DNA from: Brevundimonas sp. M20
GTDB lineage: Bacteria > Pseudomonadota > Alphaproteobacteria > Caulobacterales > Caulobacteraceae
Assembly: GCF_006547065.1 (NCBI RefSeq)
Contig: NZ_CP041243.1
Coordinates: 2,247,001 to 2,311,000 of the forward strand
DNA length: 64,000 nucleotides
Direction: 5' to 3'
Each line of letters starts with the position of its first letter. Within the stretch, counting starts at the first letter, position 1. Position numbers and translations under genes: made by a program. A model generated the notes under the pieces. It worked only from the letters and a program-made list of their open reading frames with translations. It was not told the origin of the DNA and made no database searches. This document shows positions 813 through 41,217 of the stretch, one piece after another.

Positions 813-917
813 GGGACTAGGGATCAGGGACCAGGGATTAGTCTGGTTAGTGGCGAGTGCGAACCGATACCGCAACCCCGCCGCCCACCTAATCCCTAAT
901 CCCTACTCCCCAATCCC
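813..917. repeat. Heptad inverted-repeat element 1
   Basis: The left arm (813-840) is four tandem 7-mers: GGGACTA, GGGATCA, GGGACCA, GGGATTA. The right arm (890-917) is the inverted counterpart: TAATCCC, TAATCCC, TACTCCC, CAATCCC. A loop of about 49 bp lies between. The right arm runs into the MATE gene and supplies its last codons (I-G-E) and its TAG stop. It belongs to the same family as the elements at 6376, 9288, 9880, 12559, 12907, 19006 and 40764. Confidence 0.85.
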
Positions 918-2255
918 TTGCGGCAGCCGCCGCGCCACCCTCACGAACCGCCCGGTCAGCAGGCTGCCGGACACCAGACTGGCGATGATCACCGCCCAGA
1001 CCAGACCATCGACGCCGATCTGGTGGGCCAGCACCCAGCCCAGCGGCATCATGATCGCGCCATAGGCGAAGAAATGCATGATCGTCGGCCACCAGACATC
1101 GCCCGCGGCGCGGTTGGCCTGCGCGGCGACGACCTGGATGCCGTCGGCCACGAAGAACAGGGTGGCCAGCACCAGCGCCGGTCCGGCGATGGCGATCAGG
1201 GCCGGATCGACCGTGTAGGCGCGCACCAGCAGCCCCGCCGTCGGCCAGATGATCAGGGCCACCAGCAGCGCCAGCGCCGTCACCACCCCGATCCCCGCGA
1301 AGCCCGCGCGCAGCACGCCCTCGCGGTCCCGCGCGCCATAGGCGCGGCCGACCAGCACCGCCGTCGCCGACGACAGCCCCATCGGCAGCATGAAGACGAT
1401 GGCCGACATATTGATCACGATGGCCCAGCTGGCGGTCTCGTTGGTGCCCAGCAGGCCCGCGATCACCGTCATGGCGGCGAAGGCGCCGACCTCGATGAAG
1501 TTGGATGCGCCCGCGCCCAGCCCGACCTTGACCTGCTCCCGCTCGGTCTCGCGATCCCGCGCGGGCCGCTTCCACAGGTTCCAGCTCTTCGCCTCGGGCA
1601 GACGCAGGATGTAGATGACGAGGAAGGCCGCCAGCGCCAGTCGCGCCCCGAACGTCGCCCAGGCCGAGGCCACCGCACCGTTGACGCCCAGCCCCAGCAG
1701 GTCCGGCACCAGCAGCAGGTTCAGGCCGATGTTCACGCCGTTCGCCACCCACATGGCCCACATGCCGGGCTTGGGCTTGGACAGGCCCTCCAGGAAGAAC
1801 TGGGCCGCCACCGAGATCAGGTAGAAGGGCATGGACACGGCGAAGACCACCAGCGGGCCGGACGCCCCGGCGCCGAGCCCCTCTTCAAAGCTCACGGTGT
1901 TCATCACCCACGGACCGAGGAAGGCCAGCGCCAGCATGGCGGCGATCCCGATCTGCAGCGCATAGACCATGCCCCGGCGCAGCACCGCGCCGATCTCGCC
2001 GTGCCGCCCCTCGCCGCGCAGGCGGGCGGTGACGATCTGCACCCCCATCATCAGGCCCACGGCGGTCGTCAGCACCACCGACGACGGCGCCCAGGCCAGC
2101 GAGTGATAGGCCAGCTCGCGCGACGCGTAGTGGCCGACCACGATCGCGTCGGTCAGCCCCATGGTCATGATGCCGATCCGCGCCAGCACCACCGGCCAGG
2201 CGAGATTCAGCAGTTCCTTCAGGGTGGCGCGGGTCTTGTCGTTCAGGGCGATCAT
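903..2255 (-). CDS. MATE family multidrug/sodium antiporter
   Basis: Inner-membrane efflux carrier of the MATE (NorM/DinF-like) family, expected to export organic cations in exchange for Na+ or H+. The 450-residue product has about 12 hydrophobic segments in two similar halves and starts MIALNDKTRATLKELLNLAW. ATG at 2255 is preferred over a GTG four codons upstream (2267). The C-terminus (LPQGIGE) and the stop codon come from a heptad repeat arm (903-917), so the native end has probably been replaced. The transported substrate cannot be deduced. Confidence 0.9.
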   Translation of the reverse strand: MIALNDKTRATLKELLNLAWPVVLARIGIMTMGLTDAIVVGHYASRELAYHSLAWAPSSVVLTTAVGLMMGVQIVTARLRGEGRHGEIGAVLRRGMVYALQIGIAAMLALAFLGPWVMNTVSFEEGLGAGASGPLVVFAVSMPFYLISVAAQFFLEGLSKPKPGMWAMWVANGVNIGLNLLLVPDLLGLGVNGAVASAWATFGARLALAAFLVIYILRLPEAKSWNLWKRPARDRETEREQVKVGLGAGASNFIEVGAFAAMTVIAGLLGTNETASWAIVINMSAIVFMLPMGLSSATAVLVGRAYGARDREGVLRAGFAGIGVVTALALLVALIIWPTAGLLVRAYTVDPALIAIAGPALVLATLFFVADGIQVVAAQANRAAGDVWWPTIMHFFAYGAIMMPLGWVLAHQIGVDGLVWAVIIASLVSGSLLTGRFVRVARRLPQGIGE

Positions 2256-2336
2256 GGGACGCGGCACAGGCCACGCCCCCGCCGCCGGGTCAACCGGGTT
2301 TGGGAGCGCCCGACATAAGCGCTCCTTCTGACCGGC

Positions 2337-2882
2337 TCAGCCGTGCTTCGCCACCAGCTTGCCGAACGCCGCCATGATGCTCGTCAGGAAGGTCTTGGTC
2401 CCCTCGACCTTCACCTCGCCCTTGTCATCGAAAAGCTCGCCCGCATTGCCGATATAGGCCTCGGGCTGTTGCAGGGTCGGCATGTCGAGGAAGACCAGCG
2501 ACTGGCGCAGGTGGTGGTTGGCCCCGAACCCGCCGATGGCGCCGGGCGAAACCGTGACGACGGCCGCGGGCTTGCCCGACCAGATGCTGTGGCCATAGGG
2601 GCGCGAGCCCACGTCGAGGGCGTTCTTCAGCGCGCCCGGGACCGAACGATTGTACTCCGGCGTCACGAAGACCATCCCGTCCACGCCCCGCATCTCGTCG
2701 CGGAACCGGGTCCAGGCGGCGGGCGCGGCCTCTTCCAGATCGGGATTGTACAGCGGCAGGTCGCCGATCTCGACGATCACGCCCTCCAGCCCCTCGGGCG
2801 CCTGACGGATCAGCGCCTCGGCCGTTAGCCGATTCAGGGAGCCCTTGCGCAGGCTGCCGACGATAAAGGCGATTTTGCTCAT
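2337..2882 (-). CDS. NADPH-dependent FMN reductase
   Basis: Flavodoxin-fold NAD(P)H:FMN or quinone/azo reductase of the YieF/ChrR type, 181 residues, cytoplasmic. The N-terminus (MSKIAFIVGSLRKGSLNRL) carries the phosphate-binding loop GSLRKGSLN. The middle motif TPEYNRSVPGALKNALDVGS is typical of the family. The start at 2882 is chosen because an AAGGAG ribosome-binding site lies just upstream. It probably takes part in quinone or oxidative-stress detoxification; this is inferred from the family. Confidence 0.92.
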   Translation of the reverse strand: MSKIAFIVGSLRKGSLNRLTAEALIRQAPEGLEGVIVEIGDLPLYNPDLEEAAPAAWTRFRDEMRGVDGMVFVTPEYNRSVPGALKNALDVGSRPYGHSIWSGKPAAVVTVSPGAIGGFGANHHLRQSLVFLDMPTLQQPEAYIGNAGELFDDKGEVKVEGTKTFLTSIMAAFGKLVAKHG

Positions 2883-2977
2883 GGGAGGCTCCTTCGGGAC
2901 GACCGCCGTCCTGCCCCTGATCTGGCGCCGCGCGGTCCGGTGGACAAGGGCGCGATGCAACGCCTAAACCTCACCCC

Positions 2978-4570: not shown

Positions 4571-4645
4571 TGTAGCTCGGGCGCATCCCAAGGCGGCTTC
4601 GCGCGTACTGTAAAGTTCCTTCCCGCCAGTCCGGAGTAACCGTCC

Positions 4646-6307: not shown

Positions 6308-6375
6308 GAAACCCGCCGTGGAGCGCGGACCTCCACGTCCGCGCTCCCGCTGCTGCACGGTCCGAGGTGTCGGAA

Positions 6376-6481
6376 GTGATTGGTGATTGGTGATTGGTGG
6401 GTGGCGGGTTCAAGGCCGCTGTCTGCCTTGCTTGCATCGGCGCCCACGGCATCGAACCACAAATCACTAACCACCAATCAC
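6376..6481. repeat. Heptad inverted-repeat element 2
   Basis: Left arm: GTGATTG three times, then GTGGGTG (6376-6403). Right arm: AAATCAC, TAACCAC, CAATCAC (6461-6481). The element lies between liuC and liuD and would fold as a hairpin in the polycistronic mRNA, so it could be an RNA-processing or attenuation point. No other feature was seen in the 234-bp gap. Confidence 0.85.
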
Positions 6482-6541
6482 TTGCCATTCGCGTTCCATC
6501 CGGATGTGGCGCCTTCGCTCGCGCCACTCTAAACAACCCCC

Positions 6542-8479
6542 ATGTTCAAATCCGTCCTTGTCGCCAACCGTGGCGAGATCGCCTGCCGCGTCTTCCGCAC
6601 CGCCCGCGCGATGGGGATTCGCACCATCGCCGTCTATTCCGAGGCCGACGCCGACGCCCTGCATGTGCGCGAGGCCGATGAGGCCGTGCTGATCGGCCCG
6701 GCCGCCGCCCGCGAATCCTATCTGGTCGCCGAAAAGGTGCTGCAGGCCGCGAAGGACACGGGCGCCGAGGCCATCCACCCCGGCTACGGCTTCCTGTCCG
6801 AGAACGCCGACTTCGCAGAAGCCGTCATGGCGGCGGGCATCATCTGGATCGGCCCGAAGCCGGACTCGATCCGCGCCATGGGCCTGAAGGACGCGGCCAA
6901 GAAGCTGATGATCGAGGCGGGCGTGCCCGTCACCCCCGGCTATCAGGGCGAGGATCAGTCGGACGAAACCCTGACCGCCGAGGCGAACAGGATCGGCTTC
7001 CCGGTCCTCATCAAGGCCGTCGCCGGCGGCGGCGGGAAGGGCATGAAGAAGGTCGACCGCGCGGAAGACTTCGCCGACGGCCTCGCCTCGGCCCGCCGCG
7101 AGGGTCAGTCCTCCTTCGGTGACCCGCGCGTGCTGATCGAAAGCTACATCACCCGCCCGCGCCACATCGAGGTTCAGGTCTTCGGCGACAGCCACGGCAC
7201 GGTCGTCCACCTGAACGAGCGCGACTGCTCCCTGCAACGCCGCCACCAGAAGGTCATCGAGGAGGCCCCGGCCCCCGGCATGGACCAGGCGACCCGTGAC
7301 GCCGTCACCGCCGCCGCCGTCCGCGCGGCGAAGGCCGTGAACTATCAGGGCGCCGGCACCATCGAGTTCATCGCCGACGCCTCCGACGGCCTGAAGGCCG
7401 ACCGCATCTGGTTCATGGAGATGAACACCCGGCTGCAGGTCGAACACCCGGTCACCGAGGCCATCACCGGCGTCGATCTGGTCGAATGGCAGTTCCGCGT
7501 CGCCGCGGGCGAGCCCATCCCGCTGAAGCAGGACGAGATCGGCATCAACGGCTGGGCCATGGAGGCCCGCCTCTACGCCGAAGACCCGGCCAACGGCTTC
7601 CTGCCGTCGATCGGCAGGCTGGAGCATTTTGTACTGCCCGGCGATCCCCGTCGTCCCTACGCGGCCTACGATGTCCGTATCGACACCGGCGTCATGCAGG
7701 GCGGTGAAGTCAGCCAGTTCTACGACCCGATGATCGCCAAGCTGATCGTTCACGGGAATACGCGTGAAGCTGCGGCTGAAGCCCTCGCCGACGCCGCCGG
7801 CGACGTCGAGGTCTGGCCGGTAAAGACCAACGCCGCCTTCCTCGTGAACTGCCTTGAGCACCCCCGGTTCGTCTCCGGCGATGTCGACACCGGCTTCATC
7901 GCGGCGGAGGAAGCCGTGCTGACCACCTTCACCCTCAGTGACCACGGCCTGCAGGGCGCCGCGCGGGAGGTTCGCTTTGAGGACGGCATAAACGGTGTGG
8001 GCCGCGATCCTTTCGCCCCTTGGGAATCCTGGACCGAGGCGGCTGGCCTTCGCCTGAACGCCTCACCGTCCTTGAAGCAAACCCTCTTCGTGGACGGTGT
8101 CCGCACCGTCATCGAGATCGACGACGCCATCGCGGCGCAGCATTCGCATTTCGAACCCGAACGCGGGACCACGATCTACTTCGAGAGCGGTGCCCCGTTC
8201 AGGGTGTCATCCCTCTCACCGAGGGGCGCCGCCGCTGGCCCCGCATCCGACGGCTCCCTCCGCGCCCCCATGCCCGGCAAGATCGTCGCCGCCCCGGCCG
8301 TCGCGGGCGACACGGTCGCCAAGGGCGCGCCCATCGTGGTGCTGGAAGCCATGAAGATGGAGCACGCTCTCGTCGCACCCTTCGACGGCGTGGTTCAGAG
8401 CGTTTCTGTTGTCGTCGGCGATCAGGTGGGCGACGGTGTCGTCCTCGCCGTCGTCACCCCTGTTGAAAGCCTGCCCTGA
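6542..8479 (+). CDS. liuD: Methylcrotonoyl-CoA carboxylase, biotin-containing (alpha) subunit
   Basis: Biotin carboxylase plus biotin carrier, 645 residues. N-terminal biotin-carboxylase domain (VLVANRGEIACRVFRTAR), ATP-grasp loop GGGGKGMKKV, metal/bicarbonate motif MEMNTRLQVEHPVTE, then a BT-like linker and a C-terminal biotinyl domain with EAMKMEH (biotinylated Lys about 605). It carboxylates biotin with ATP and bicarbonate and passes the group to LiuB. Its stop shares a base with the next start (TGATG). Confidence 0.94.
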   Translation: MFKSVLVANRGEIACRVFRTARAMGIRTIAVYSEADADALHVREADEAVLIGPAAARESYLVAEKVLQAAKDTGAEAIHPGYGFLSENADFAEAVMAAGIIWIGPKPDSIRAMGLKDAAKKLMIEAGVPVTPGYQGEDQSDETLTAEANRIGFPVLIKAVAGGGGKGMKKVDRAEDFADGLASARREGQSSFGDPRVLIESYITRPRHIEVQVFGDSHGTVVHLNERDCSLQRRHQKVIEEAPAPGMDQATRDAVTAAAVRAAKAVNYQGAGTIEFIADASDGLKADRIWFMEMNTRLQVEHPVTEAITGVDLVEWQFRVAAGEPIPLKQDEIGINGWAMEARLYAEDPANGFLPSIGRLEHFVLPGDPRRPYAAYDVRIDTGVMQGGEVSQFYDPMIAKLIVHGNTREAAAEALADAAGDVEVWPVKTNAAFLVNCLEHPRFVSGDVDTGFIAAEEAVLTTFTLSDHGLQGAAREVRFEDGINGVGRDPFAPWESWTEAAGLRLNASPSLKQTLFVDGVRTVIEIDDAIAAQHSHFEPERGTTIYFESGAPFRVSSLSPRGAAAGPASDGSLRAPMPGKIVAAPAVAGDTVAKGAPIVVLEAMKMEHALVAPFDGVVQSVSVVVGDQVGDGVVLAVVTPVESLP

Positions 8480-8835
8480 TGTCCCTGATCGCCGCCTTCG
8501 CCGCCGGACTGGCCCTGTCCGCCTCGCCGTCGCCCCAGACCGACGCCCTGTCCGATCTGAAACCGGCGGATCGCGCGGACCTTCAGTGCATGACCCTGCT
8601 CACGGCCATGGTCGGCGCCGAGCAGAATGAGACCACGCGGCTGACCCTGACCTCCGGGATCACCTACTATCTCGGTCGGCTTCAGGGCCGGACCCCGGAC
8701 GTCAAATGGGTGGACCGTCTGATGGCCTACGCCCGCACCGAACCCACCGCCGCCCTCGAGGCCAACCGCACCCGCTGCGCGGGAGAAATGCAGGAGATGG
8801 GTCGGGTCATGACCGCGGCGGCTTCAGGCGGTTGA
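8479..8835 (+). CDS. Hypothetical exported protein
   Basis: 118 residues starting MSLIAAFAAGLALSASPS, a probable signal peptide. The mature part is mostly helical with two cysteines (LQCMTLLTAMVG and TRCAGEMQEMG). The TGATG junction with liuD suggests coupled translation, but nothing in the protein suggests a role in leucine breakdown. No family recognised. Confidence 0.7.
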   Translation: MSLIAAFAAGLALSASPSPQTDALSDLKPADRADLQCMTLLTAMVGAEQNETTRLTLTSGITYYLGRLQGRTPDVKWVDRLMAYARTEPTAALEANRTRCAGEMQEMGRVMTAAASGG

Positions 8836-8848
8836 TCGCGAACAGCCC

Positions 8849-9145
8849 TCAGCCCAGCCCCAGTCCGCCCACCGGCGTCGTCACGGTCGCATCCTCGAAC
8901 GTGGCGATCAGCGGCAGGCCCCGACGCAGCAAGGTCTTCACCGCCTCGTCGGCCAGGGCGTCGCGGTGGGCGGCTTCATTGATCCAGACCTCGCTCACCC
9001 GGATGGCCTCCGGGTCGGCCGGATCATGCGACACGACATAACTCAGGCACCCCGGCATCCCCAGCGCCACCCGGTCCAGCAGAATCGCCGTCAGCGCCTC
9101 CCGCTGACCCGCCCGGGCCGTCATCCGACCGATCAAACCGTACAT
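8849..9145 (-). CDS. Antibiotic biosynthesis monooxygenase (ABM) domain protein
   Basis: 98-residue single-domain dimeric alpha-beta barrel protein of the ABM/YgiN-like quinol monooxygenase type. It begins MYGLIGRMTARAGQREALTAIL and contains the family pattern LSYVVSHDPADPEAIRVSEVWINEAAHRDAL. Members oxidise quinols or aromatic metabolites without a cofactor; the substrate here is unknown. It converges with the gene ending at 8835. Confidence 0.85.
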   Translation of the reverse strand: MYGLIGRMTARAGQREALTAILLDRVALGMPGCLSYVVSHDPADPEAIRVSEVWINEAAHRDALADEAVKTLLRRGLPLIATFEDATVTTPVGGLGLG

Positions 9146-9287
9146 GCCGTCGCCTTCCGTTGCGGCAGCCTCTACGCCCGTGCATCCCCCCTGTCTTCAC
9201 GGGGAAACTACTGAGCCCCACGTTAACGCCGGTCACCAGAACAGCCTCTGACCTTCGCGCGAAAGTGGCGGAGCCGGAGCCCGGAAA

Positions 9288-9376
9288 GTGGCTAGTGGCT
9301 AGTGGCTAGTGGGTGGCTTGGACCCTGGCCGGCGCGCGCTGACCGCCGTCCCTGTCATCCACTAGCCACTAGCCAC
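9288..9376. repeat. Heptad inverted-repeat element 3
   Basis: Left arm: GTGGCTA three times, then GTGGGTG (9288-9315). Right arm: TAGCCAC twice (9363-9376). Its core is clearly similar, in inverted orientation, to the core of the element at 12907-13002 (both hold GGGTGGCYTGGACC followed by a GCGCTGACCG block), which shows common descent. It is the only feature seen in the 328-bp gap between 9146 and 9473. Confidence 0.85.
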
Positions 9377-9473
9377 TTGGCGTCCCCGCCCTGTCCCTAC
9401 CGATCACAGCTTTCGGTCCGACACCCGCCCCTCCCCGCTGGCGCCCGGCCCCGCATCGCGCCATATCCCCACC

Positions 9474-9872
9474 ATGCCCCTGCACATGATCAAGCTCTGC
9501 GTCGGCGTCTCCGAGGTCGAATGGCTGGAGCGGCGCGCCGAGGGCGGCCGGCCGCTCATCGTCCACACCCGCATGACACCCAAACGCGCGACGGAGCTGG
9601 AGGACGGCGGCTCCCTCTACTGGGTCATCAAGGGCTCGGTCCTGTGCCGCCAGCCGATCCTCGACATCTCGACGCTCGGCGAAGGCAGCCAGAGCCGCTG
9701 CGAGATCACGCTGGAGCCCCGCGTCATCCGCACCGCCCCCCTCGCCCGCCGCCCCTTCCAAGGGTGGCGCTATTTCGAGCCCAAGGACGCCCCCGCCGAC
9801 CTGACGGCCGCCGACGCCTCGGACCTGCCGGATGATCTGGCGCGGGAACTCCGGGAGTTGGGGGCGTGGTGA
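9474..9872 (+). CDS. DUF1489 family protein
   Basis: 132-residue cytoplasmic protein of the alphaproteobacterial DUF1489 family, recognised from MIKLCVGVSEVEWLERR, TRMTPKRATELEDGGSLYWV and IKGSVLCRQPILDI. Function unknown. ATG at 9474 is used; a second in-frame ATG four codons later is possible. Elements 3 and 4 flank the gene, so it looks like a stand-alone unit. Confidence 0.85.
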   Translation: MPLHMIKLCVGVSEVEWLERRAEGGRPLIVHTRMTPKRATELEDGGSLYWVIKGSVLCRQPILDISTLGEGSQSRCEITLEPRVIRTAPLARRPFQGWRYFEPKDAPADLTAADASDLPDDLARELRELGAW

Positions 9873-9879
9873 AGTCGAA

Positions 9880-9998
9880 GGATTAGGGACTAGGGATTGG
9901 GGATTAGGCGCAGCCGCTGAACCGAGGTCGCCCTTCCCCGTTCACGGCGAAGCTGATCTAACCCCTTCCCTAATCCCCAATCCCTAGTCCCTAATCCC
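9880..9998. repeat. Heptad inverted-repeat element 4, abutting a start codon
   Basis: Left arm (9880-9906): GGATTA, GGGACTA, GGGATTG, GGGATTA. Right arm (9971-9998): TAATCCC, CAATCCC, TAGTCCC, TAATCCC, the exact inverse. This is one of the best-preserved arm pairs (about 27 bp perfect). The right end lies 4 bp before the ATG of the patatin gene at 10003 and takes the place where a ribosome-binding site should be. Confidence 0.9.
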
Positions 9999-10002
9999 TC
10001 CC

Positions 10003-11844
10003 ATGCCCCCCGCTCGCTCCGACCGGCTCTCCGACGCCCTGCACCGCATCTTCGAGCGGGGCGGAAACACGCCCGCCAGCTGGTTCGCGCTGACGGGCGG
10101 CGAGACCCTGTTCGCCGAGGGCGATCCGGCGGACACTCTCTACCTGCTGCGCGCGGGCCGTCTGGGCGTCTTCCGTAGCGAGAGCAACGATCAGCCGCCC
10201 CAGTTCGTCGGCGTCATCCGCCCCGGCGAACCGGCGGGTGAAATGGCCATGCTGGCGGGCAGCCCGCACACCGCCGACGTCGTCGCCCTGCGCGATTCCG
10301 AGGTTCTGGCCCTCCCCCGCGACGCCTTCTTCGAGGCCGCCCGCACCGAGCCCGACCTGATGGTCGAGCTGTCGCGCCTGATGATCCAGCGCGCCCGCGA
10401 CCGGCGCTCCGGCGGCGGCGAGCCCAGCGTCTTCGGCTTCATCTCCGCCCGCCCCCGGCCCATCCGCGCCTTCGTCGAGCGGATCGCCGCCGCCATCGAA
10501 GCCGCCGGCTTCACCTGTCAGGTCATCGACCACTCAGCCCTGTCCTCCGCCGCCGACTGGTTCAGCCGGGTCGAGGATTCGCACGACTTCGTCCTGTACG
10601 TCGCCGAGGCTGACGAGCCCGCATGGGCCGCCCTGTGCGCCCGTCAGGTGGATCGCCTGTTCGTCGTCGGCCAGTGCCTGCTGGCCCCGCCCAACCGGCC
10701 GCTGCCCCATGCCGGAGTTCTGGACGCCCAGCGCCGCACCGACCTGATCCTGCTGCGCGACCCGCGCATGGCCCGGCCGCACAACACCGCCGTGTGGATC
10801 GACGCGGTCCAGCCGGGCCGCTGGTTCCAGGCCATGGAAGGCGATCCCGCCGACGCCGCCCGCATCGCCCGCGTCATCACCGGCACGGCGGTGGGCGTGG
10901 TCATGTCCGGCGGCGGCGCCCGCGCCTATGCCCACATCGGCGCCCTGAAGGCCCTGTGCGAGGCCGGCGTGCCCATCGACTTCGTCGGCGGCGCCTCCAT
11001 GGGCGCGGTGGTCGCCGCCGGTCCGGCCATGGGCTGGACGCTGGACGAGTTGGAGGACCGCATCAGACGCTCCTTCGTCGACAGCGACCCGCTCAGCGAC
11101 ATAACCTTCCCCATGCTGGCCATGAGCCGCGCGAAGAAGGTCGATAACCTGCTTCAGGCCGCCTACGGCGACACCGACCTGGCCGACCTGCACCTGCCCT
11201 TCTTCGCGGTCTCGACCAACCTCACCTCGGGCCGGATCGAGATCCATCGCCGGGGCCTGATGCGCCGGGCCATGCGCGCCACCATCGCCATCCCGGGCCT
11301 GCTGCCGCCTGTGGTTCTGGACCGTCAGGTGCTGGTGGACGGGGCGGTGCTGAACAATTTGCCCGCCGAGGTGATGCGCCAGATGAACGCCGGGCCGGTC
11401 ATCGGCATCGACATGTCGCAGGCGCGCGGCGTCGATCCTCACATGATCGAGCATCCGCCGTCGATCTGGCGGCTGATCGCCACCGGCGCCTGGCGTCGCG
11501 GTCCGCCCATCGTCTCCATCATGATGCGCTCGGCCACCCTGACTTCGGACGCCGAGATCGAGCGGTCGCGGGGCATCGTGGACATTCTGGTCCAGCCCAC
11601 GCCCGACGGCGTCGATATTCGCGACTGGAAGGCCTACGGCCCCGCCGTCGACGCCGGCTACCGCGCCATGGCCGCCGAACTGGAGGCGCTGGACGGCCCG
11701 GTCACCGGCCTGCGCCGTCGTCGTACCGTCGCCGCGCAATCAGGAACAGGCGTGGAAACGGCAGAAGGGTCACCCCGTCCGGACGAGGCGGAAAAGCCCG
11801 CGAAAGGGCGTCGGAAAGCGCCGAAAGCCAGGCGGCCTTCATAG
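10003..11844 (+). CDS. Patatin-like phospholipase with cyclic-nucleotide-binding domain (NTE family)
   Basis: 613 residues. Residues 10-130 form a cNMP/CRP-like sensor (GETLFAEGDPADTLYLLRAG...GEPAGEMAMLAGSPHTADV). A linker follows, then a patatin hydrolase with oxyanion motif SGGGARAYAHIGAL, nucleophile GGASMGA (Ser332) and catalytic Asp in LVDGAV (Asp446). It resembles neuropathy-target-esterase-type (lyso)phospholipases. The basic C-terminal tail (11703-11844) is antisense to the conserved 3' end of tam and is probably a late extension. No Shine-Dalgarno is visible because element 4 abuts the ATG. Confidence 0.9.
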   Translation: MPPARSDRLSDALHRIFERGGNTPASWFALTGGETLFAEGDPADTLYLLRAGRLGVFRSESNDQPPQFVGVIRPGEPAGEMAMLAGSPHTADVVALRDSEVLALPRDAFFEAARTEPDLMVELSRLMIQRARDRRSGGGEPSVFGFISARPRPIRAFVERIAAAIEAAGFTCQVIDHSALSSAADWFSRVEDSHDFVLYVAEADEPAWAALCARQVDRLFVVGQCLLAPPNRPLPHAGVLDAQRRTDLILLRDPRMARPHNTAVWIDAVQPGRWFQAMEGDPADAARIARVITGTAVGVVMSGGGARAYAHIGALKALCEAGVPIDFVGGASMGAVVAAGPAMGWTLDELEDRIRRSFVDSDPLSDITFPMLAMSRAKKVDNLLQAAYGDTDLADLHLPFFAVSTNLTSGRIEIHRRGLMRRAMRATIAIPGLLPPVVLDRQVLVDGAVLNNLPAEVMRQMNAGPVIGIDMSQARGVDPHMIEHPPSIWRLIATGAWRRGPPIVSIMMRSATLTSDAEIERSRGIVDILVQPTPDGVDIRDWKAYGPAVDAGYRAMAAELEALDGPVTGLRRRRTVAAQSGTGVETAEGSPRPDEAEKPAKGRRKAPKARRPS

Positions 11845-12520
11845 CGGGATCATCCGCCAGCGCCGTCAGGTGCGGCCGCAACGCCGTGCCCTTCATCCAT
11901 TCCAGCACCGGCGCCTCGCCGGTCAGGGCGTGCAGATAGGTGGTCGACCAGATATCGATATCCCCGCACCGCTCGGCCAGCGCGTCGTAATAGTCCGCCG
12001 GGTCCAGCAGGGCCTGAATGGTCCGCCGCTCCTCCAGCCGGTCGGCCCACGGCCCTTCTCCGCGCACCTGCCGCATCACCCGGTAATGCAGGGTGTCCCA
12101 CGACAACGGCATCTGCACCGCGATGACCCCGCCCGGCGCCAGCAGACCCGTCAGCCGCCGCAGCAATGCCCGGTGGTCCGGCAGCCATTGCAGGGACGCG
12201 TTGGCGAAGATCAGGTCCAGCGGCCCCTCCGGCTCCCATGTGGCCAGATCGCCCTCGACCCAGTCCACATCGGCTCCCAGCCCCCGCGCCTGCTCCAGCA
12301 TGGCCGCGCTGGCGTCCAGCCCGGTCACATGGGCCCGCGGATGCCGCCGCTTCAGCAGGGCCGCGTGCTGCCCAGCGCCACAGCCCAGATCGACGATCGA
12401 CCGCGGCTCCAGATCGCCCGGCAGCCGCAACAACAGATCCAGCGCCGGCCGATCCCGCTCGGCCTCGAACCGGCTGTACTGTTTGGGGTCCCAGAGGGTG
12501 GCGGCTGCGGCGTTGCTCAT
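11702..12520 (-). CDS. tam: Trans-aconitate 2-methyltransferase
   Basis: 272-residue SAM-dependent methyltransferase that esterifies trans-aconitate. Motif I is IVDLGCGAGQHAALL, followed by GLDASAAMLEQAR and the family segment FANASLQWLPDHRALLRRL. The ending LLPFPRLFLIARR is typical of Tam. The start MSNAAAATLWDPKQYSRF at 12520 fits the family better than an ATG four codons upstream. It converges with and overlaps the patatin gene by 143 bp. Because this C-terminus is conserved, the overlap arose in the patatin reading frame. Confidence 0.88.
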   Translation of the reverse strand: MSNAAAATLWDPKQYSRFEAERDRPALDLLLRLPGDLEPRSIVDLGCGAGQHAALLKRRHPRAHVTGLDASAAMLEQARGLGADVDWVEGDLATWEPEGPLDLIFANASLQWLPDHRALLRRLTGLLAPGGVIAVQMPLSWDTLHYRVMRQVRGEGPWADRLEERRTIQALLDPADYYDALAERCGDIDIWSTTYLHALTGEAPVLEWMKGTALRPHLTALADDPAMKAAWLSALSDALSRAFPPRPDGVTLLPFPRLFLIARRRYDDGAGR

Positions 12521-12558
12521 AGGGTGGAGCATAGGCCGTTGAGAGCGGCGCCGGGCAA

Positions 12559-12658
12559 GTGATTGGTGATCAGGTGATTGGTGATTAGCGGTTTCGGACA
12601 GCCTGCCTCACCAACTTGGCCCCGGTGACGCCGGCAGCAATCACCAATCACCAATCAC
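12559..12658. repeat. Heptad inverted-repeat element 5
   Basis: Left arm: GTGATTG, GTGATCA, one extra G, GTGATTG, GTGATTA (12559-12587). Right arm: CAATCAC three times (12638-12658). Flanks GGCAAGTGATTG and CAATCACTTGCC extend the pairing. It lies upstream of tam and downstream of tRNA-His. Confidence 0.85.
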
Positions 12659-12721
12659 TTGCCACGCGCAAACCGCGCGTCAGACAGGAACACTGTTTCC
12701 GGGAGAAAGCGTGGAAGGCGA

Positions 12722-12798
12722 TGGTACAGCCTCTCAGGTTTGAACTGAGGACCTCCGGCTCCACAAACCGGCGCTCTAACCAACTGAGCTAAGGCTGC
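12722..12798 (-). tRNA. tRNA-His (GTG), without encoded G-1
   Basis: Cloverleaf read on the reverse strand: acceptor GCAGCCT/AGGCTGT (first pair G:U), D-stem GCTC/GAGC, anticodon stem CCGGT/GCCGG around TTGTGGA (anticodon GTG), T-arm CTCAG-TTCAAAC-CTGAG, then A73 and an encoded CCA. The base before position 1 is T, so the usual tRNA-His G-1 is not encoded, and the discriminator is A instead of C. This fits the alphaproteobacterial clade whose HisRS does not need G-1. Confidence 0.95.
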
Positions 12799-12906
12799 AC
12801 ATATCCGCGCGAGCGGCGTCTTTAGCTGCGTCGGTTGTGGGGATCAAGAACCAATTGCGCCGATGCGGATGCGATCTGCGACGCCCTTGAACGCACAGCC
12901 CGGAAA

Positions 12907-13002
12907 GTGGCGAGTGGCGAGTGATTGGTGGGTGGCCTGGACGTCGGTCAGCGCCCACCGGCCACGGTCCAGGCCACCCACTAACCACTAATCACCAATC
13001 AC
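12907..13002. repeat. Heptad inverted-repeat element 6
   Basis: Left arm: GTGGCGA, GTGGCGA, GTGATTG, GTGGGTG (12907-12934). Right arm: CACCCAC, TAACCAC, TAATCAC, CAATCAC (12975-13002). Pairing continues inward through GGCCTGGAC/GTCCAGGCC. The core is an inverted relative of element 3. It lies between tRNA-His and the M48 peptidase gene. Confidence 0.85.
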
Positions 13003-13046
13003 TTCGCCGCTCAGGCGCCCGAACACACGGGCGCCGACCTCCCGCC

Positions 13047-13790
13047 TCAGCTCCAGCCCCGGCTGGCGATGTATTGCTCAAGCGCGGTGATCCGCGTGGT
13101 GTCGGACGGGTGAGTCGAGGCGAACTCGGGCGTGGAGCCCTGACGCTGTTGCTGCATCAGCCGCCACAGGGTGACAGACTCGGCCGGGCGGTATCCCGCG
13201 CGCTGCATGTAGTCGACGCCCAGACGGTCGGCCTCCAGCTCATCCCGGCGCGAGAAGGGCAGCAGCACGCCCAATTGAGCGCCCAGACCGCCGATGGCGC
13301 CCGCCGCCTGGCCATAGTCCCCCGCCGCGCCCTGCACCCCGCTGAGAACCAGTCCGGTCGCGGCGCTGGTGGAATAGCGCTCGGCGGCGTGGCGGGCGAC
13401 GACGTGACCGACTTCGTGCCCCAGCACGGCGGCCAGCTGATCGTCATTGCGGACCAGCGCCAGCAGGCTGGTGGTCACCCCGATCTTGCCCGACGGCAGG
13501 ACGAAGGCGTTCGGCGCGTCACTGACGAACAGGGCGTACTCCCAGCGTCGGTCGCCCAGCCCCGCCGCATTGACGATCTTGCCGCCGACCGTGCGGATAC
13601 GGTTCAGCGCGGCCGGGTCGTTGGACTGCCGCTGGGTTCGCAGGGTCTCGGCCCAGACCGCGTCCGCCTGCTGGGTCAGGGCGCTGTCGTCCACGATCAG
13701 GAACTGGTTGCGGCCCAAGGTGTCGTTGTAGGCGCAGGCCGACAGCGCGGCTCCGGACAGCAAAAGGGTGGCGAGGATGGCGCGTTTCAT
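13047..13790 (-). CDS. M48 family zinc metalloprotease, lipoprotein
   Basis: 247-residue periplasmic Zn peptidase of the BepA/LoiP type, probably acting in outer-membrane protein quality control. The N-terminus MKRAILATLLLSGAALSAC is a lipoprotein signal with a lipobox at Cys19. The zinc motif HEVGH is at residues 125-129 and the third ligand lies in DELEADRLGVDYM. The start at 13790 is chosen because it directly gives the signal peptide. No TPR domain follows, so it is the short, LoiP-like form. Confidence 0.9.
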   Translation of the reverse strand: MKRAILATLLLSGAALSACAYNDTLGRNQFLIVDDSALTQQADAVWAETLRTQRQSNDPAALNRIRTVGGKIVNAAGLGDRRWEYALFVSDAPNAFVLPSGKIGVTTSLLALVRNDDQLAAVLGHEVGHVVARHAAERYSTSAATGLVLSGVQGAAGDYGQAAGAIGGLGAQLGVLLPFSRRDELEADRLGVDYMQRAGYRPAESVTLWRLMQQQRQGSTPEFASTHPSDTTRITALEQYIASRGWS

Positions 13791-13930
13791 GGGGTCTCTC
13801 CGCAATCAGCTTGGCCGTACAAAACGTCATCCCCGCCGAAAGGCTCCGGGGCAAGAGGGCGATGGACGCAAGCGCAATGTGACGCCTTCGGGCTCTCACC
13901 GCCCATCCAGCTCCCCGGCCCAAACAAAAA

Positions 13931-13957
13931 CGCCCCGGGGCCGAAGCTCCGGGGCGT
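13931..13957 (-). terminator. Rho-independent terminator of exbB-exbD-tonB
   Basis: CGCCCCGG and CCGGGGCG pair around a short loop. On the reverse strand the hairpin is followed by TTTTTGTTTG, 27 bp after the tonB stop. Confidence 0.85.
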
Positions 13958-13983
13958 CCCTGTCTTGTCGCTTTCGCTCAGCC

Positions 13984-14706
13984 TTAGTCCGGCATCTGGA
14001 AGCGCGAGGTCCAGCGGACCACCGCGCCTTCAGCGGCGCCGTCCACCGTCCGGGGCGAAACCCGCGAACGACGGGCCGCGGCCAGAGCGGCCTGGCCGAA
14101 GCCGGCGCCGGCGGGATCTTCCGAAACCACCGAACAGTTCGTCAGGCTACCGTTCGGTTGAACGTTGCACTGGATCGTAACCCGGCCGGATTCGATGCCA
14201 CGCGAGATCGCGCGTTCCGGGTAGTCCGGCAGGACCTGACGGGCCCAGCTCGGCTGCGTGATCACCGACTGACGCGCCGGCGGAGCCGGAACGGGCGCCG
14301 GTTGGGGCGGCGTGGTGGTCACCACCGGCGGACCGGGGTTCTCAATACGCTGATCCTTCGGCGTCGGCGCGAGGACGACGGGCGGCGGCGAGACCGGGCT
14401 CTGAATCGGAGCCGGGACGCGCACCTGCAGCTTCGGCGGCGGGGGCTGGTTGCTCGGCGGCGGCGGCGGCGGCGGAGGCGGCGGAGGTTCGGGCAGAGGC
14501 TCGATGATCTCCACGTTCACCGCGTCGTCGACGTACCGGATTTCCCGCAGCTTGAACTGCATGTTGACGAAATAGATCGCCAGCAGAACGAACAGGGAGG
14601 TGACGACGAGCAGGCTGACGATGAGCACGCCGGGGGGAACCCCGAGGAAGCCCTTCTTGCGCGGCGCGTCGTACCGGCTGCGATGATATTCAACAGTCTC
14701 GGTCAT
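13984..14706 (-). CDS. tonB: Energy transducer TonB
   Basis: 240 residues. Short cytoplasmic N-terminus, one membrane segment (GVLIVSLLVVTSLFVLLAIY), a long Pro-rich periplasmic spacer with a run of 11 prolines, and a C-terminal TonB fold (PDYPERAISRGIESGRVTIQ...). It carries proton-motive energy from ExbB/ExbD to outer-membrane receptors. Last gene of the exbB-exbD-tonB operon, followed by a terminator. Confidence 0.92.
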   Translation of the reverse strand: MTETVEYHRSRYDAPRKKGFLGVPPGVLIVSLLVVTSLFVLLAIYFVNMQFKLREIRYVDDAVNVEIIEPLPEPPPPPPPPPPPSNQPPPPKLQVRVPAPIQSPVSPPPVVLAPTPKDQRIENPGPPVVTTTPPQPAPVPAPPARQSVITQPSWARQVLPDYPERAISRGIESGRVTIQCNVQPNGSLTNCSVVSEDPAGAGFGQAALAAARRSRVSPRTVDGAAEGAVVRWTSRFQMPD

Positions 14707-14723
14707 GGTTGAACCGTCTCCCG

Positions 14724-15161
14724 TTACTGAGTCGACTGGTCTTCGCCGACCAGAGCCACGGAATAGAAACCGTGATCCTGGAGCGAATTCATGACCTGCA
14801 TGAAATCACCGTATCGGGTCGTCTGGTCCGCGCGGATGAAGATACGCTCATCCGACGGCAGCTTGTTCCCGATCAGCTTGCCCAGCTCGGCGCCGACCGA
14901 AGTGATGTCCACCTCGTCGTCACCGATATAAGCCGAGCCGTTGTTCTGGATAGACACATAGAACGGCTTCGGGGGGTTTTGCTGAGGTTTAGCGACCGCA
15001 GCAGGAAGTTTCACCTCCACCGACACGGTGGCGAGCGGAGCCGCCACCATGAAGATGATGAGCAGAACCAGCATGATATCAACGAAAGGCGTGACGTTGA
15101 TTTCCGAGTTCTGCTCAATGGCCCACTTGCCACCGCCGCCGCCTCCAAGTTTGGCGGCCAT
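14724..15161 (-). CDS. exbD: Biopolymer transport protein ExbD
   Basis: 145 residues. One N-terminal membrane helix (NVTPFVDIMLVLLIIFMVAA) holds the conserved proton-carrying Asp, followed by a periplasmic domain. Partner of ExbB and TonB. It starts 5 bp after the exbB stop. Two further exbD copies occur at 57729 and 58313 and share the NVTPFVDIMLVLLIIFMVAAP segment. Confidence 0.93.
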   Translation of the reverse strand: MAAKLGGGGGGKWAIEQNSEINVTPFVDIMLVLLIIFMVAAPLATVSVEVKLPAAVAKPQQNPPKPFYVSIQNNGSAYIGDDEVDITSVGAELGKLIGNKLPSDERIFIRADQTTRYGDFMQVMNSLQDHGFYSVALVGEDQSTQ

Positions 15162-15166
15162 CCGGG

Positions 15167-16054
15167 TTACGCCCCCTTGTCGAGGTTACGCGAGATCGCG
15201 TTGATCAGTTCAGCGTTGAAGCCGTCCGAACGGGTGCCGTAGGCCGCGATGCGCGTGTTGAAGTAGTTGTAGAACACGACCGCCGGAATAGCGGCGAACA
15301 GGCCGATGCCGGTGGCGAGCAGGGCTTCAGCGATACCCGGAGCAACGACGGCCAGGTTGGTCGTGTTGGTGTTCGCTATACCGATGAACGAGTTCATGAT
15401 GCCGTACACGGTGCCGAACAGACCGACGAACGGACCGATCGAGCCGGTCGAGGCCAGGAACTGCTGGCCGCCCGACAGGCGCTTGGCCAGACCCGATTGA
15501 ACCGCCGACGTCGCTTGTTGAGCGCGCAGCAGGGCCGAGTCGGAGTGTTCGCCGGTGACCGAGAGGCCGGCCTGACGCGACAGTTCGATTTCGTCGGTGG
15601 CCGCGGCGGCCATGTCGGCCAGCGGGTTGCCGTCGAACTCGTCCGAGGTGGCGACCTTACGCATGTCAGCGATGGTGCGGGCCTGACGGAACGATTCCAG
15701 GAAGCGGTCGGTGGCGCGGTTCAGCGAACCGAACTCGAACAGCTTGATGAGCAGCAGGGTCCACGAGAAGATCGAGGCCAGAACCAAGCCGATCATGACG
15801 ACCTTCACGACGATGTCGGCGTGTTGGAACATCGACGCGACGGTCATCTTGTCGCCTTCGGCAGCCGGCTCTTCAGCGGCGGCCGGTTCAGCGGCCGGAG
15901 CCGGGGTCGGGGCGGGGGTGGTGGCGGCCGGAGCGGCAGTCGAGGCCGCCGCGGTCGGGGCGGCCGTTTCCTGCGCGAGGACCGGCGAACCGACCATCAG
16001 GACGGCGGCGCCGGCCATGGCCAGAAGAATGTTGGTCTTTTTGAAGTCGAGCAT
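15167..16054 (-). CDS. exbB: MotA/TolQ/ExbB proton channel family protein
   Basis: 295 residues. A cleavable-looking signal (MLDFKKTNILLAMAGAAVLM...VLAQ), then an Ala/Pro-rich periplasmic stretch of about 40 residues, then three membrane helices with the ExbB channel motifs (GLFGTVYGIMNSFIGIA, ALLATGIGLFAAIPAVVFYN). It forms the proton channel with ExbD. First gene of the Ton operon. Confidence 0.92.
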   Translation of the reverse strand: MLDFKKTNILLAMAGAAVLMVGSPVLAQETAAPTAAASTAAPAATTPAPTPAPAAEPAAAEEPAAEGDKMTVASMFQHADIVVKVVMIGLVLASIFSWTLLLIKLFEFGSLNRATDRFLESFRQARTIADMRKVATSDEFDGNPLADMAAAATDEIELSRQAGLSVTGEHSDSALLRAQQATSAVQSGLAKRLSGGQQFLASTGSIGPFVGLFGTVYGIMNSFIGIANTNTTNLAVVAPGIAEALLATGIGLFAAIPAVVFYNYFNTRIAAYGTRSDGFNAELINAISRNLDKGA

Positions 16055-16735
16055 AGTTCGCCAGGTCCTGCTTTGGTGTCTGACTCGTGGAACCCAGGGA
16101 GCAGACCAATCTGGCGGCCGGCCCCCGATGAAAATCTCGCCCGTAAACTCAGGGATTCACAGAACCCCGATCTACGGAACGCCTCCTGAACGCTTCCGGT
16201 TGCCTGAAGGCTCCCGGGGCGGTGTCGGCAGGTGTGGGGAAACCGTTTTCCCAACTCCTCCCGGCCGCTCGCAAAGGAAAGCGGTCAAGCTCCTTTGGCG
16301 AACGCATACCAGAGCGTCAAGTGCGCAACGCCGCTTTTCCCCTCGGGGGAGAGCACGCGCGTTCGTTGCGGAAGTTTCAGGTTGAAAGCGTCAATTTCAT
16401 GATGGTTCGGCGGAACGTTCGACCCTTTATGAGGGCGCACGGATGATCTTTTTGGAATATTGCACCGCACAATGGAATTTCATTCCACGGTTGTCGCGCG
16501 ACCAGGACGACCCTGCCCGTTAATCACTATGAACAGGGTCATTCACACCAAACAGCGATCGGTTTTGACGTGACGTGAACCATCGCCCGCCTCCCGGCGC
16601 CGACGCGCCTGCGGGAGCGATCCGCCGCGCGAATACGCGATAATACGCAGTCGCGGAAACGGGCCTGCGCGAGGGTGCGGCGGATTGACGTGAATCGGGG
16701 GATCTCGGGGGCTGGCGGCCATCTTTTGAAGGAGA
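16055..16735. other. 681-bp gap without a convincing gene, upstream of exbB
   Basis: Short reading frames here lack ribosome-binding sites and family features. It should hold the exbB promoter. The most regular site is a dyad TGGAAT-TTC-ATTCCA at 16473-16487, in a locally AT-rich stretch, which could be an operator. It does not look like a Fur box. tRNA-Phe begins at the far end. Confidence 0.5.
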
Positions 16736-16811
16736 TGGTGCCCGGGGGCGGATTCGAACCACCGACACGCGGATTTTCAATCCGCTGCTCTACCAACTGA
16801 GCTACCCGGGC
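16736..16811 (-). tRNA. tRNA-Phe (GAA)
   Basis: On the reverse strand: acceptor GCCCGGG/CCCGGGC, D-arm GCTC/GAGC, anticodon stem GCGGA/TCCGC around TTGAAAA (anticodon GAA), T-loop TTCGAAT, A73 and encoded CCA. It lies just downstream of yacG, a common alphaproteobacterial order. Confidence 0.96.
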
Positions 16812-16874
16812 GCCGCGCCGAAGCGAGGGAGCGGGGTCTATAGACAAGCCCATTCCCGGTGGCAAGCACCTCTG

Positions 16875-18648: not shown

Positions 18649-18660
18649 CGCGCGCGTCCC

Positions 18661-18879: not shown

Positions 18880-19005
18880 GCGGCCTCTCACGCCCGTTGG
18901 ATACGATTAAACGACGCGCGCCGGGCGGCAGCGCACGCCGAAGGAGCGGCCATATGCCTGAAAAAGGCGGGATAGTCGAGGCGTCGGCCGCTTCGCGACC
19001 AACGA

Positions 19006-19113
19006 GTGGCGAGTGGCGAGTGATTAGTGGTGAGTGGGACTGGTCGAACGAGTTGCGCACACCGGAGCAAGTCCAGGGCTCTGACACTCACCACTCGCCA
19101 CTAATCACTCGCC
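19006..19113. repeat. Heptad inverted-repeat element 7
   Basis: Left arm: GTGGCGA, GTGGCGA, GTGATTA, GTGGTGA (19006-19033). Right arm: TCACCAC, TCGCCAC, TAATCAC (19088-19108), then TCGCC. It lies between UPF0262 and infA, where other alphaproteobacteria often have a phosphotyrosine-phosphatase gene; that gene is absent here. Confidence 0.85.
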
Positions 19114-19136
19114 GCTCCGGCGCGCAGCGCCGGGCG

Positions 19137-32292: not shown

Positions 32293-32295
32293 CGC

Positions 32296-36952: not shown

Positions 36953-36979
36953 GGGGTCAGCTCCTGTTTTCCAATCATG

Positions 36980-36996: not shown

Positions 36997-37051
36997 TGCC
37001 AAATATGATCATCATCATGTATCCGTCAATCCCAACGATGGAGATGAGGCG

Positions 37052-37606: not shown

Positions 37607-37612
37607 ACGATC

Positions 37613-39645: not shown

Positions 39646-39706
39646 GGATCGAAAATACCGGCGGCCAAGGGTCGTCGACAAATCCGATCACGCCAAATCG
39701 CGGGCC

Positions 39707-40423
39707 TCAGACCGGCGCCGCCCCTTCCGTCACATCCCCGAACACCCGGCGGAAGCTGGTTTTCAGGGCGTCGTCGGCCTCGTCCATGGTGGCGGGGACG
39801 CCGAGGTCGACGAGGCTGGTGACGCCGTGGTCCTGGATGCCGCAGGGGACGATGCCGCCGAAGTGGGTCAGGTCGGGTTCGACGTTCAGGCTGATGCCGT
39901 GGAAGCTGACCCATTTGCGGACCTTGACGCCGATGGCGGCGATCTTGTCCTCGCGGCTCCAGCCCGGTCCCTTGCGCTCGACCCAGACGCCGACGCGGCC
40001 CTCGCGCACGTCGGCGGGGACGTTGAACTCATTGAGGGCGCCGATGATCCATTGTTCGAGGCCGCGGACGAAGGCGCGGATGTCCTTGCCGCGCTGGTTC
40101 AGGTCCAGCATCACATAGGCCACGCGCTGGCCGGGGCCGTGATAGGTGAACTGGCCGCCCCGTCCGCTGCGGTGGACCGGGAAGCGCCCGACGTCGAGCA
40201 GGTCCTCGTCCTTTGACGAGACGCCCGCCGTGTAGAGAGGCGGATGCTCCAGCAGCCAGACCAGTTCGGGCGCCTCACCGGCGGCGATGGCGGCGGCGCG
40301 GGCCTCCATGGCCTCGACGGCGGCGGGATAGTCGACATAGCCCCTTGAGACCGCCCATTCGACGGGGCGGCCGTCGACGCGCGCCAGCTTTGATATGGTT
40401 TCGCTTAAGGACTGGGAAAGCAT
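39707..40423 (-). CDS. lipB: Octanoyltransferase (lipoate biosynthesis)
   Basis: 238 residues. It moves octanoyl from ACP to E2/H-protein lysines. Family motifs: [22 protein letters not shown], the Lys in [21 protein letters not shown], and the catalytic Cys in [17 protein letters not shown] at 40423 is used; a start 14 codons upstream would cover a CCCC-GGGG hairpin and overlap the divergent gene. Confidence 0.93.
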
Positions 40424-40453
40424 GATGCCCCCAATGTGGGGATCAGGAGCCCC

Positions 40454-40750
40454 ATGCAAGACCACTCCGCCGTATCACCTTCAGTATCAGAGTCCCCCGT
40501 GAGCCAGATCGAATCCGTCGATGTCGAGATTTCGGTCGTCCTGGGGCGCTCCGTGCTGCCCATGAGCCAGCTGCTGAAAATGGGCCGGGGAGCGGTGATC
40601 CCGCTGGATGCGTCGGAGCACGACGAGGTCTGGATTCTGGCCAACAACCATCCGGTGGCGCGTGGCGAGATCGAGATCCGGGATGACCGGATCGCGATCA
40701 CCGTGACGCGGGCGGCGGACGTGTATGACTTCATGGCCGGGGCGGCTTGA
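40454..40750 (+). CDS. FliN/YscQ-type flagellar switch (SpoA domain) protein, orphan
   Basis: 98 residues. A short acidic N-terminus and a SpoA surface-presentation domain ([52 protein letters not shown]). FliN forms the C-ring with FliM and FliG. ATG at 40454 follows AGGAG at good spacing. It sits alone beside lipB, 20 kb from fliM; it may be a second FliN paralogue. Confidence 0.85.
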
Positions 40751-40763
40751 GGGCAGCACTCAG

Positions 40764-41217
40764 AAATTAGGGCGTAGGAATTAGGGCGTAGGGAGTTTTT
40801 GGCGGAGTTTCGGGTGTCCGGAGTTCGTAGCTACAAAGACCTGCTGGTTTGGCAAAAAGCGATGGATGTCGCAGCGGCCACCTATGAAAACCCGCGCCTA
40901 TCCACGCGAAGAACTGTTCGGCCTGACCTCCCAGAGCCGCCGAGCCGCCGTATCGATCGCCGCCAATATCGCCGAGGGGCTACGGTCGTGACAGCCGCCC
41001 GAGCTTCATCCAGTTCCTCCGTGTGTCACAAGGCTCGCTGAAGGAACTTGAAACCCATCTGCTGCTTGCTGCTCGCGTGACCGTGACAGAGTCCCGGACG
41101 ATCGAACCGATTCTGCGTGATCTGGATGAACTTGGTAAAATGCTGCGAGGCCTGATCAAAGCGCTGAACAGTCGACGCAGCGCTGACCCTACGCCCTAAT
41201 TCCTACGCGCTAATTTT
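40764..41217. mobile_element. Heptad inverted-repeat element 8, gene-carrying form
   Basis: Left arm 40764-40793: AAATTA, GGGCGTA, GGAATTA, GGGCGTA, GGG. Right arm 41187-41216 is its inverse with one mismatch in 30 bp (GCGCGTA for GGGCGTA). It encloses a four-helix-bundle gene whose TAA stop lies inside the right arm. The 7-bp period and GGRNNTA-like units link it to seven shorter elements in this window. I infer it is the full-length form of the family. Confidence 0.8.
40799..41199 (+). pseudogene. Four-helix-bundle (S23p/IVP family) protein gene, two frameshifts
   Basis: The family sequence can be followed through three frames: VRSYKDLLVWQKAMDVAAATYE, then TRAYPREELFGLTSQSRRAA..NIAEG, then GYGRDSRPSFIQFLRVSQGS and LKELETHLLLAARV to GKMLRGLIKALNS. 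Each shift is one extra base in a run: A4 at 40887-40890 and G4 at 40976-40979. With both removed, a normal protein of about 130 residues results. The start is TTG 40799 or nearby. The family is found in 23S rRNA intervening sequences and is related to Avd of diversity-generating retroelements. Confidence 0.82.

Follow-up and report, generated by a model that had tools for sequence, protein, structure and literature searches.

S23 elements: a widespread and probably mobile family with inverted heptad arms, viewed from a Brevundimonas chromosome

A 64,000-nucleotide stretch of Brevundimonas sp. M20 (hereafter the window; the genome, labelled G000, is 3.3 Mb in a single contig) contains eight places at which tandem 7-bp units are repeated in inverted orientation across a core, one of them enclosing a gene. 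What are these structures, and how is the gene related to the repeats? The evidence below makes it likely that they belong to a widespread group of S23 elements, in which a gene for the 23S rRNA intervening sequence (IVS) protein (S23/IVP, family PF05635) lies between inverted arrays of 7-bp (sometimes 8-bp) units, accompanied by gene-less derivatives of about 100 bp. These elements are probably mobile.

All eight inverted heptad arrays, as put forward in the original prediction, proved real when the sites were read in the sequence. A detector that requires inverted, 7-periodic arms recovers seven of the eight, against three matches in total when the window was shuffled 20 times in blocks of 3 bases, and the remaining element (12559-12658), whose left arm contains an indel, was confirmed by eye and by folding. 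The window reversed without complementing gave six matches and is unusable as a control because inverted repeats survive reversal; a degenerate pattern read backwards is also an invalid control, since the reversed pattern matches the same arrays. Folded as RNA hairpins, the seven short copies reach z scores of -4.9 to -9.1. Arms had been said to be matched within a copy, and each arm does fit the other arm of its copy more closely than it fits arms from different elements of its type (GTG type, n = 21, 0 of 5000 permutations as good; GGG type, n = 12 elements, 64 of 5000), in a permutation test that is biased because the detector had already demanded matching arms.

The gene that one copy was predicted to carry is a broken PF05635 gene. 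Its intact relatives match both PF05635 and TIGR02436 ('four helix bundle protein'), and relatives with solved structures include 2gsc and 2rld; the fold of this family is a four-helix bundle. Elsewhere in the genome the gene recurs in the same setting: all five PF05635 loci have inverted arms by eye, four of them clearly heptad, and each uses a different unit (GTGATTA, GGGATTA, GGGTGTC, GGGCGTA and, at L001, GTGAGYA). The proposed limitation of the unit to GKGRYKR does not stand, since the copy at 40764 has GGGCGTA/GGAATTA and other genomes hold GGCAGTA, GGTTCTA, GGGTGTC, GCGAATA and others.

To see how general the link between S23 and such arms is, loci were gathered from a Brevundimonas set (81 genomes, 43 with PF05635; 63 loci, including the window copy), from named genomes (the best 80 of 548 confirmed relatives), from a phylum scan (397 genomes, 62 with a match) and from plasmids. 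The named and phylum scans added S23 loci from Planctomycetes, Bacteroidetes, Chloroflexi, Nitrospirae, Verrucomicrobia, candidate phyla and others. Under one fixed rule, significant inverted arms were found in 171 of 202 distinct S23 loci spanning many phyla (20 repeat entries dropped) and 7- or 8-bp periodicity at 149, against arms at 10 and periodic arms at 2 of 389 control positions shifted by 850 bp in both directions. If repeat entries are counted as well, 193 of 221 loci are armed and 169 periodic, compared with 12 and 1 of 429 controls; the armed and periodic counts per set are then 57 and 47 of 60 (genus), 65 and 60 of 78 (named), 23 and 22 of 27 (phylum), 19 and 17 of 26 (plasmid and extra) and 29 and 23 of 30 (the Mesorhizobium-type slot described below). 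When the later-added loci of that slot are removed from the 202 different loci, 149 of the remaining 179 are armed and 133 periodic. Borderline loci change by a few between runs because the arm rule uses random shuffles, and the S23 loci are mutually related, so the counts are not independent trials. At L013, GTGGCGA arms were recognised on reading.

The S23 search of plasmids matched 27 records, not all of them cyanobacterial, and armed S23 genes are present on cyanobacterial plasmids among the four loci inspected, two of which are the same segment; one query of phage records for S23 returned no match. In Calothrix brevissima NIES-22, two plasmids (L264/L265) carry a GGGTGTA-armed S23 gene beside a phage-integrase-family gene; the two copies share more than the element and are therefore uninformative on movement. 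Two GGGGCTA-type S23 elements stand less than 2 kb apart on one contig at L080 (G018:C6:1300-6400).

These locus counts bear on an alternative in which the arrays are ordinary tandem repeats: slippage acts at gene ends, template switching across a quasi-palindrome matches the arms, S23 is a passenger and nothing moves. Unit number does vary freely, as this account would have it. The rarity of such arms at shifted positions, compared with S23 loci, speaks against it, and as an explanation of the whole we consider it unlikely; simple slippage has been set against the locus counts and is kept only as a route of arm change.

The unit that an S23 element carries follows the lineage of its protein. 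When 12 unit types, labelled by eye, are placed on a tree of S23 proteins of the genus (62 sequences, the window gene left out), 11 changes suffice, which is the minimum possible and compares with a mean of 44.6 for shuffled labels; in another set, of 59 proteins mostly from rhizobia, seven unit types need six changes, again the minimum (near-copies aid the clustering of labels in both trees). An automatic unit caller applied to 170 labelled loci found a unit difference of 0.03 letters at 80-100% protein identity, 1.5 letters at 60-70% and 3.1 at 40-50%. A Mantel test on 47 named organisms without Brevundimonas, Caulobacteraceae and Mesorhizobium gave r = -0.49, with 0 of 1000 permutations as low. 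Unit type thus tracks S23 clade, and gene and arms therefore travel together, also between phyla. That one S23 clade with its unit is found at unrelated sites and in different phyla is a further argument against a passenger role for S23. An explanation by which the host genome sets the unit was rejected, since single genomes hold several S23 elements with different units (five elements in G000; two or three in each of G604, G621, G554, G657, G623 and G536). The notion that stop codons in all three frames are a constant feature of the heptads was abandoned, as GTGGCGA, GGCAGCA and GGGTGTC contain none.

The same association bears on the suggestion that these are elements resembling miniature inverted-repeat transposable elements (MITEs), moved in trans by an unrelated transposase with S23 as cargo. 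Their size, inverted ends and scattered gene-less copies are indeed MITE-like. S23, however, is the gene that recurs inside these arms, with a unit that matches its clade, and no transposase with such ends was noticed, though none was searched for; we regard this suggestion as very unlikely. MITEs and REPIN/RAYT systems combine short non-autonomous hairpins with a full-size partner gene, RAYT being a Y1 transposase. The elements described here are similar in that short gene-less hairpins occur alongside a full-size gene-bearing form, and different in that the partner is S23 rather than a Y1 transposase and the arms consist of tandem 7/8-mers.

Orthologous sites vary between species, being occupied, empty or filled with another unit type, and they usually lie at the stop codon of a gene. 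The original prediction staked the family on the existence of empty alleles, and these were found at all three window sites tested. At the tRNA-His slot, 12 of 30 genus loci are occupied, 13 are empty, three are doubtful and two were not evaluated, and the occupants represent at least five unit types by eye; inspection of this slot by eye for pre-existing terminator loops as insertion targets gave no clear result. Element 12557 is present at four of 26 evaluated loci (its own genome, G504, G058 and G025) and absent from 22. At the FliN slot, an element was detected at eight of 30 loci, one of them a remnant, and the detector was negative at 19; heptad-like letters were seen by eye at three more (G014, G064, G079). 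G058 and the window are 95% identical in FliN and 71% identical in S23, and the G058 S23 gene has GGCAGTA arms, which points either to an independent insertion at one and the same position or to very rapid decay. Three S23/unit types were found across 17 genus loci at one operon junction, which we take to be aguB/aguA. This polymorphic occupancy is the ground on which we infer that the elements are mobile.

A second test case was provided by the Mesorhizobium-type slot, in a genus set of 146 genomes, at the junction of what are presumably an acyl-CoA dehydrogenase and a 3-hydroxyisobutyrate dehydrogenase gene (names taken from the flank sequence). Thirty-three genomes are listed with a full-length element; among 20 others, 13 have an ordinary short spacer and are empty, six are shortened or different, and the last contains a gap of Ns. 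Of 30 slot loci, 29 retain an unbroken S23 domain; in L314, S23 is broken across two frames. The median ratio of nonsynonymous to synonymous divergence (dN/dS) is 0.076 for the slot (362 pairs that passed a filter on synonymous differences) and 0.14 for another set (nine pairs), which indicates that S23 is under purifying selection in the two sets tested.

Five loci of this slot, L333-L337, have lost the middle of S23 and are thus gene-deleted elements. L333, L334, L335 and L337 share nearly identical break points (about 156 and 375 on L308) and therefore probably descend from one inherited deletion, L336 representing a second. After deletion, L335 keeps GGCAGTA and L334 has GGCAGTA together with left-arm hexads. 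In L333 and L337, both arms contain octads (GGGCAGTA, GGGGAGTA) in place of the GGCAGTA heptads seen in their relatives, and the core matches intact neighbours at about 78-84%; both arms have changed together around an orthologous core. This observation favours the tandem-repeat account to the extent that slippage and hairpin copying do act, and it supports the copying between arms that the original prediction had proposed. It is suggestive only that slot arms are rewritten to the unit of another resident S23, for which G604 and G554 fit; an octad S23 is present in five of 12 genomes searched, G657 has one and its slot arms are not octad, and G593 does not fit. Two further loci of the slot are unusual. 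At L334 (G657) the left arm shifts from GGCAGTA heptads to AGTAGC hexads and the right arm is unshifted, and L332 (G593) is a near-perfect heptad-array palindrome with almost no core and the units TAGTGAG and TAGTCAG.

The copies of about 100 bp look like gene-less derivatives of S23 elements. At least 35 gene-less cores, including the seven of the window, were collected in the Brevundimonas sp. M20 genome with a degenerate pattern and from targeted stretches, as a sample rather than a census; among the matches listed, their elements span a median of 107 bp with extremes of 62 and 207. In the genus, arrays of a given unit accompany a typed S23 of that unit: GGCARYA arrays occur in 11 of 11 genomes with such an S23 against 16 of 70 others, GTGGCGA arrays in 8 of 8 against 28 of 73, and GGGAYTA arrays in 6 of 6 against 14 of 75. 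These counts include the S23 element's own arms, score untyped S23 fragments as absent and are uncorrected for kinship. The cores of the short copies, whose unrelatedness had been named as a ground for abandoning the family, are indeed mostly unrelated, which favours independent tandem repeats; the modest excess of related pairs (11 of 595 with a score of at least 14, compared with 0.3 in letter shuffles), to which arm remnants may contribute, points the other way. Six short elements cluster within 13 kb of the window (6374-19117), more densely than in the rest of the genome among the matches listed. At L066 (3334-3395), a small inverted pair of GGGTGTC type has a 12-bp core, GGGTGTC being the unit of the S23 locus L004 of the Brevundimonas sp. 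M20 genome.

Where elements sit was assessed with genes called by open reading frame (ORF) length and third-position GC content (GC3) only. Within the Brevundimonas sp. M20 genome, a GC3-rich long ORF ends between -30 and +25 bases from an outer end in 26 of 35 elements, a set that includes the gene-bearing one; for shifted positions the figure is 26 of 208. Such ORFs end at both sides of 10 of 35 elements against 0 of 208. Five of the eight window elements have an ORF end, the exceptions being 6374, 9287 and 12905 (Table 1). Element 9877..10000 begins just past the stop of an ORF (9474-9872, + strand) and ends 2 bp 5' of the patatin start codon at 10003, and element 40765..41215 fills the gap between the stop of FliN (40750) and that of a convergent fasciclin gene (41220). 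Among the S23 elements of the genus, 53 of 61 are associated with a co-directional long GC3-rich ORF whose end falls in the interval from -120 to +45 relative to the 5' arm, for the most part no more than 15 bases away.

Table 1. Inverted heptad elements of the window and the genes placed with them
Feature	Coordinates	Strand	Description
Short element	812..918	.	GGGATTA-type arms; right arm overlaps the stop of a MATE gene, 903-2267(-)
Short element	6374..6483	.	GTGATTG-type arms; gene context unsure, no GC3-rich ORF of at least 100 codons ending there
Short element	9287..9377	.	GTGGCTA arms; no gene stop found at either end
Short element	9877..10000	.	GGGATTA/GGGACTA arms
Short element	12557..12661	.	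GTGATTG arms
tRNA-His	12722..12798	-	Landmark between elements 12557..12661 and 12905..13004
Short element	12905..13004	.	GTGGCGA/GTGATTG arms; slot elsewhere empty or with other unit types
Short element	19005..19117	.	GTGGCGA/GTGATTA arms
Full-size element	40765..41215	+	GGGCGTA/GGAATTA arms flanking the broken S23 gene
Broken PF05635 (S23) gene	40890..41148	+	Two frames, one internal TGA

Placement at stop codons, together with strong hairpins, could also be expected of RNA or DNA structures selected at gene ends, such as terminators, mRNA stabilisers or G-quadruplex regulators, as discussed for Xanthomonas. The relevant precedent is the description of GGGNATC heptad arrays (Rehm 2015, PMC4692102), which in its accessible part counts 70 and 75 convergent inverted pairs in two strains of Xanthomonas, describes the arrays as mostly transcribed and conserved in position, and finds no general link to mobile elements. 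Conserved, transcribed positions would suit selected structures. Against this stand the common empty alleles, the unrelated host genes, the many units without GGG tracts and the link to S23, which such structures leave unexplained, and we judge the explanation highly improbable.

The claim that the family was undescribed is accordingly true in part: heptad arrays with inverted pairs had been reported, and the main text of that report names neither S23 nor 'four helix' (PMC4692102). As far as the accessible part of the same source goes, its arrays, from Xanthomonas and Nostoc, resemble ours in their tandem G-rich heptads, inverted pairs and proximity to stop codons. They differ in unit, that of the Brevundimonas sp. 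M20 genome being GGGATTA, GTGATTR or GTGGCGA, and three exact GGGAATC units in a row are absent from G000. Exact triple GGGAATC arrays were found in three of the 397 phylum genomes (G308, G223, G199). In G308 and G223, two of these three, GGGATTC/GGGAATC arms enclose an S23 gene, scored only in part for G223 in the phylum scan, in a spacer that is presumably accB-accC; G199 has no PF05635 match. A tie of S23 elements to the Xanthomonas arrays themselves is a prediction from these cases, by which the X. campestris gene behind structure 2gsc would be flanked by arms of GGGAATC type. G308 contains 209 pattern matches in total, and its locus L370 (G308:C1:325500-328500) is a pure GGGAATC array of more than 60 units.

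A second known system is the 23S rRNA IVS. As described in the accessible part of one account, an S23 ORF lies in the loop of a long stem, the IVS has been called a selfish element and is known from Coxiella and Leptospira, up to three tandem heptamers (GACAGAT) precede the S23 ORF in Coxiella, and both the origin of the IVS and the role of S23p are unclear (PMC4990558). The full-size elements described here likewise hold an S23/PF05635 gene within a long inverted repeat, the short ones being gene-less. In contrast to the IVS, the window copies have protein-coding or tRNA genes on either side, as do the slots at which the flanks were read, and the elements here include gene-less copies and have lineage-specific units in both arms. 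Because the window copies are intergenic, they are placed only in the wider family and not among the in-rRNA IVSs. A direct connection is provided by G264, in which a heptad-armed S23 gene lies inside 23S rRNA in two rRNA operons (L268/L269) at RF02541 model positions of about 1186-1248; these two alone matched large subunit (LSU) rRNA when Rfam was run on 20 loci. We take the insertion position to be near helix 45. The region of the G264 copies is the known IVS place, as far as the accessible part of the account goes (PMC4990558). G264 additionally has L270, an S23 gene with GTGAGGA arms at which Rfam found no rRNA, and L271, an S23 gene without arms. With the S23-heptad design present in 23S rRNA, and S23 with GGGAATC-like arms in two of three array genomes, two known oddities join into one family. 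The original prediction was right about matched arms and a single gene-bearing copy; it missed S23/IVP as the centre of the family, the link between unit and clade, and the design shared with the 23S rRNA IVS.

How might such an element spread? In the mechanism that we propose, the element would be transcribed together with a host gene or rRNA, and its arms would pair into a long stem. The pentameric bundle formed by the S23 protein, which is related to Avd, the cofactor of diversity-generating retroelements (DGRs), may recognise the stem or the unit that belongs to its lineage and help to copy or insert the element, as well as gene-less copies with the same unit, via host enzymes, for which RNase III, a reverse transcriptase or repair synthesis are candidates. 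Insertions would survive mainly at gene ends. Slippage would multiply units within one arm and template switching across the hairpin would copy them to the other, so that both arms stay matched. The accessible part of one source assigns Avd and S23 to a common superfamily (PMC10053308). In contrast to true Avd, the S23 proteins here fall far below the curated cut-off of 80, the Avd model giving 23.3 and 20.9 bits for two of three S23 proteins and no match for the third.

Several points weigh against S23 elements being mobile through their own protein. No movement has been observed and no target duplication defined, the flanks being too diverged for base-exact junctions; many sites are common to several species, so movement is not frequent. 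The link between unit and clade by itself indicates co-travel of arms and gene, not recognition by the protein. Significant arms are missing at 31 of the 202 S23 loci, several Caldilineaceae among them, GTGAGYA-type arms (including those of L001) are inverted yet weakly 7-periodic, and the arrays counted above also occur in 16, 28 and 14 genomes without a typed S23 of their unit. Moreover, the element contains no catalytic gene, its full-size form carrying S23 only, and we know of no catalytic residues in S23.

Taken further, these elements would be a new kind of mobile element in which the 7/8-bp unit is a recognition code: each S23 lineage would read, and perhaps rewrite, the unit particular to it in both arms, on gene-less copies as well as in cis, insertion of the hairpin at rRNA loops or transcribed gene ends would need no transposase encoded by the element, and the 23S rRNA IVSs would be its rRNA-resident branch. 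We put this forward tentatively, as possible rather than probable. S23 genes linked with inverted heptad arms outside rRNA were not found in the literature searched, which did not extend to subscription papers. The S23 elements would unite the S23 intervening sequences of rRNA and the G-rich heptad arrays in one family across many bacterial phyla. The origin of the IVS and the role of S23p may become open to test through intergenic relatives with empty alleles, and the common and so far functionless 'four helix bundle protein' (PF05635/TIGR02436) would gain a testable role, as the partner of a repeat code.

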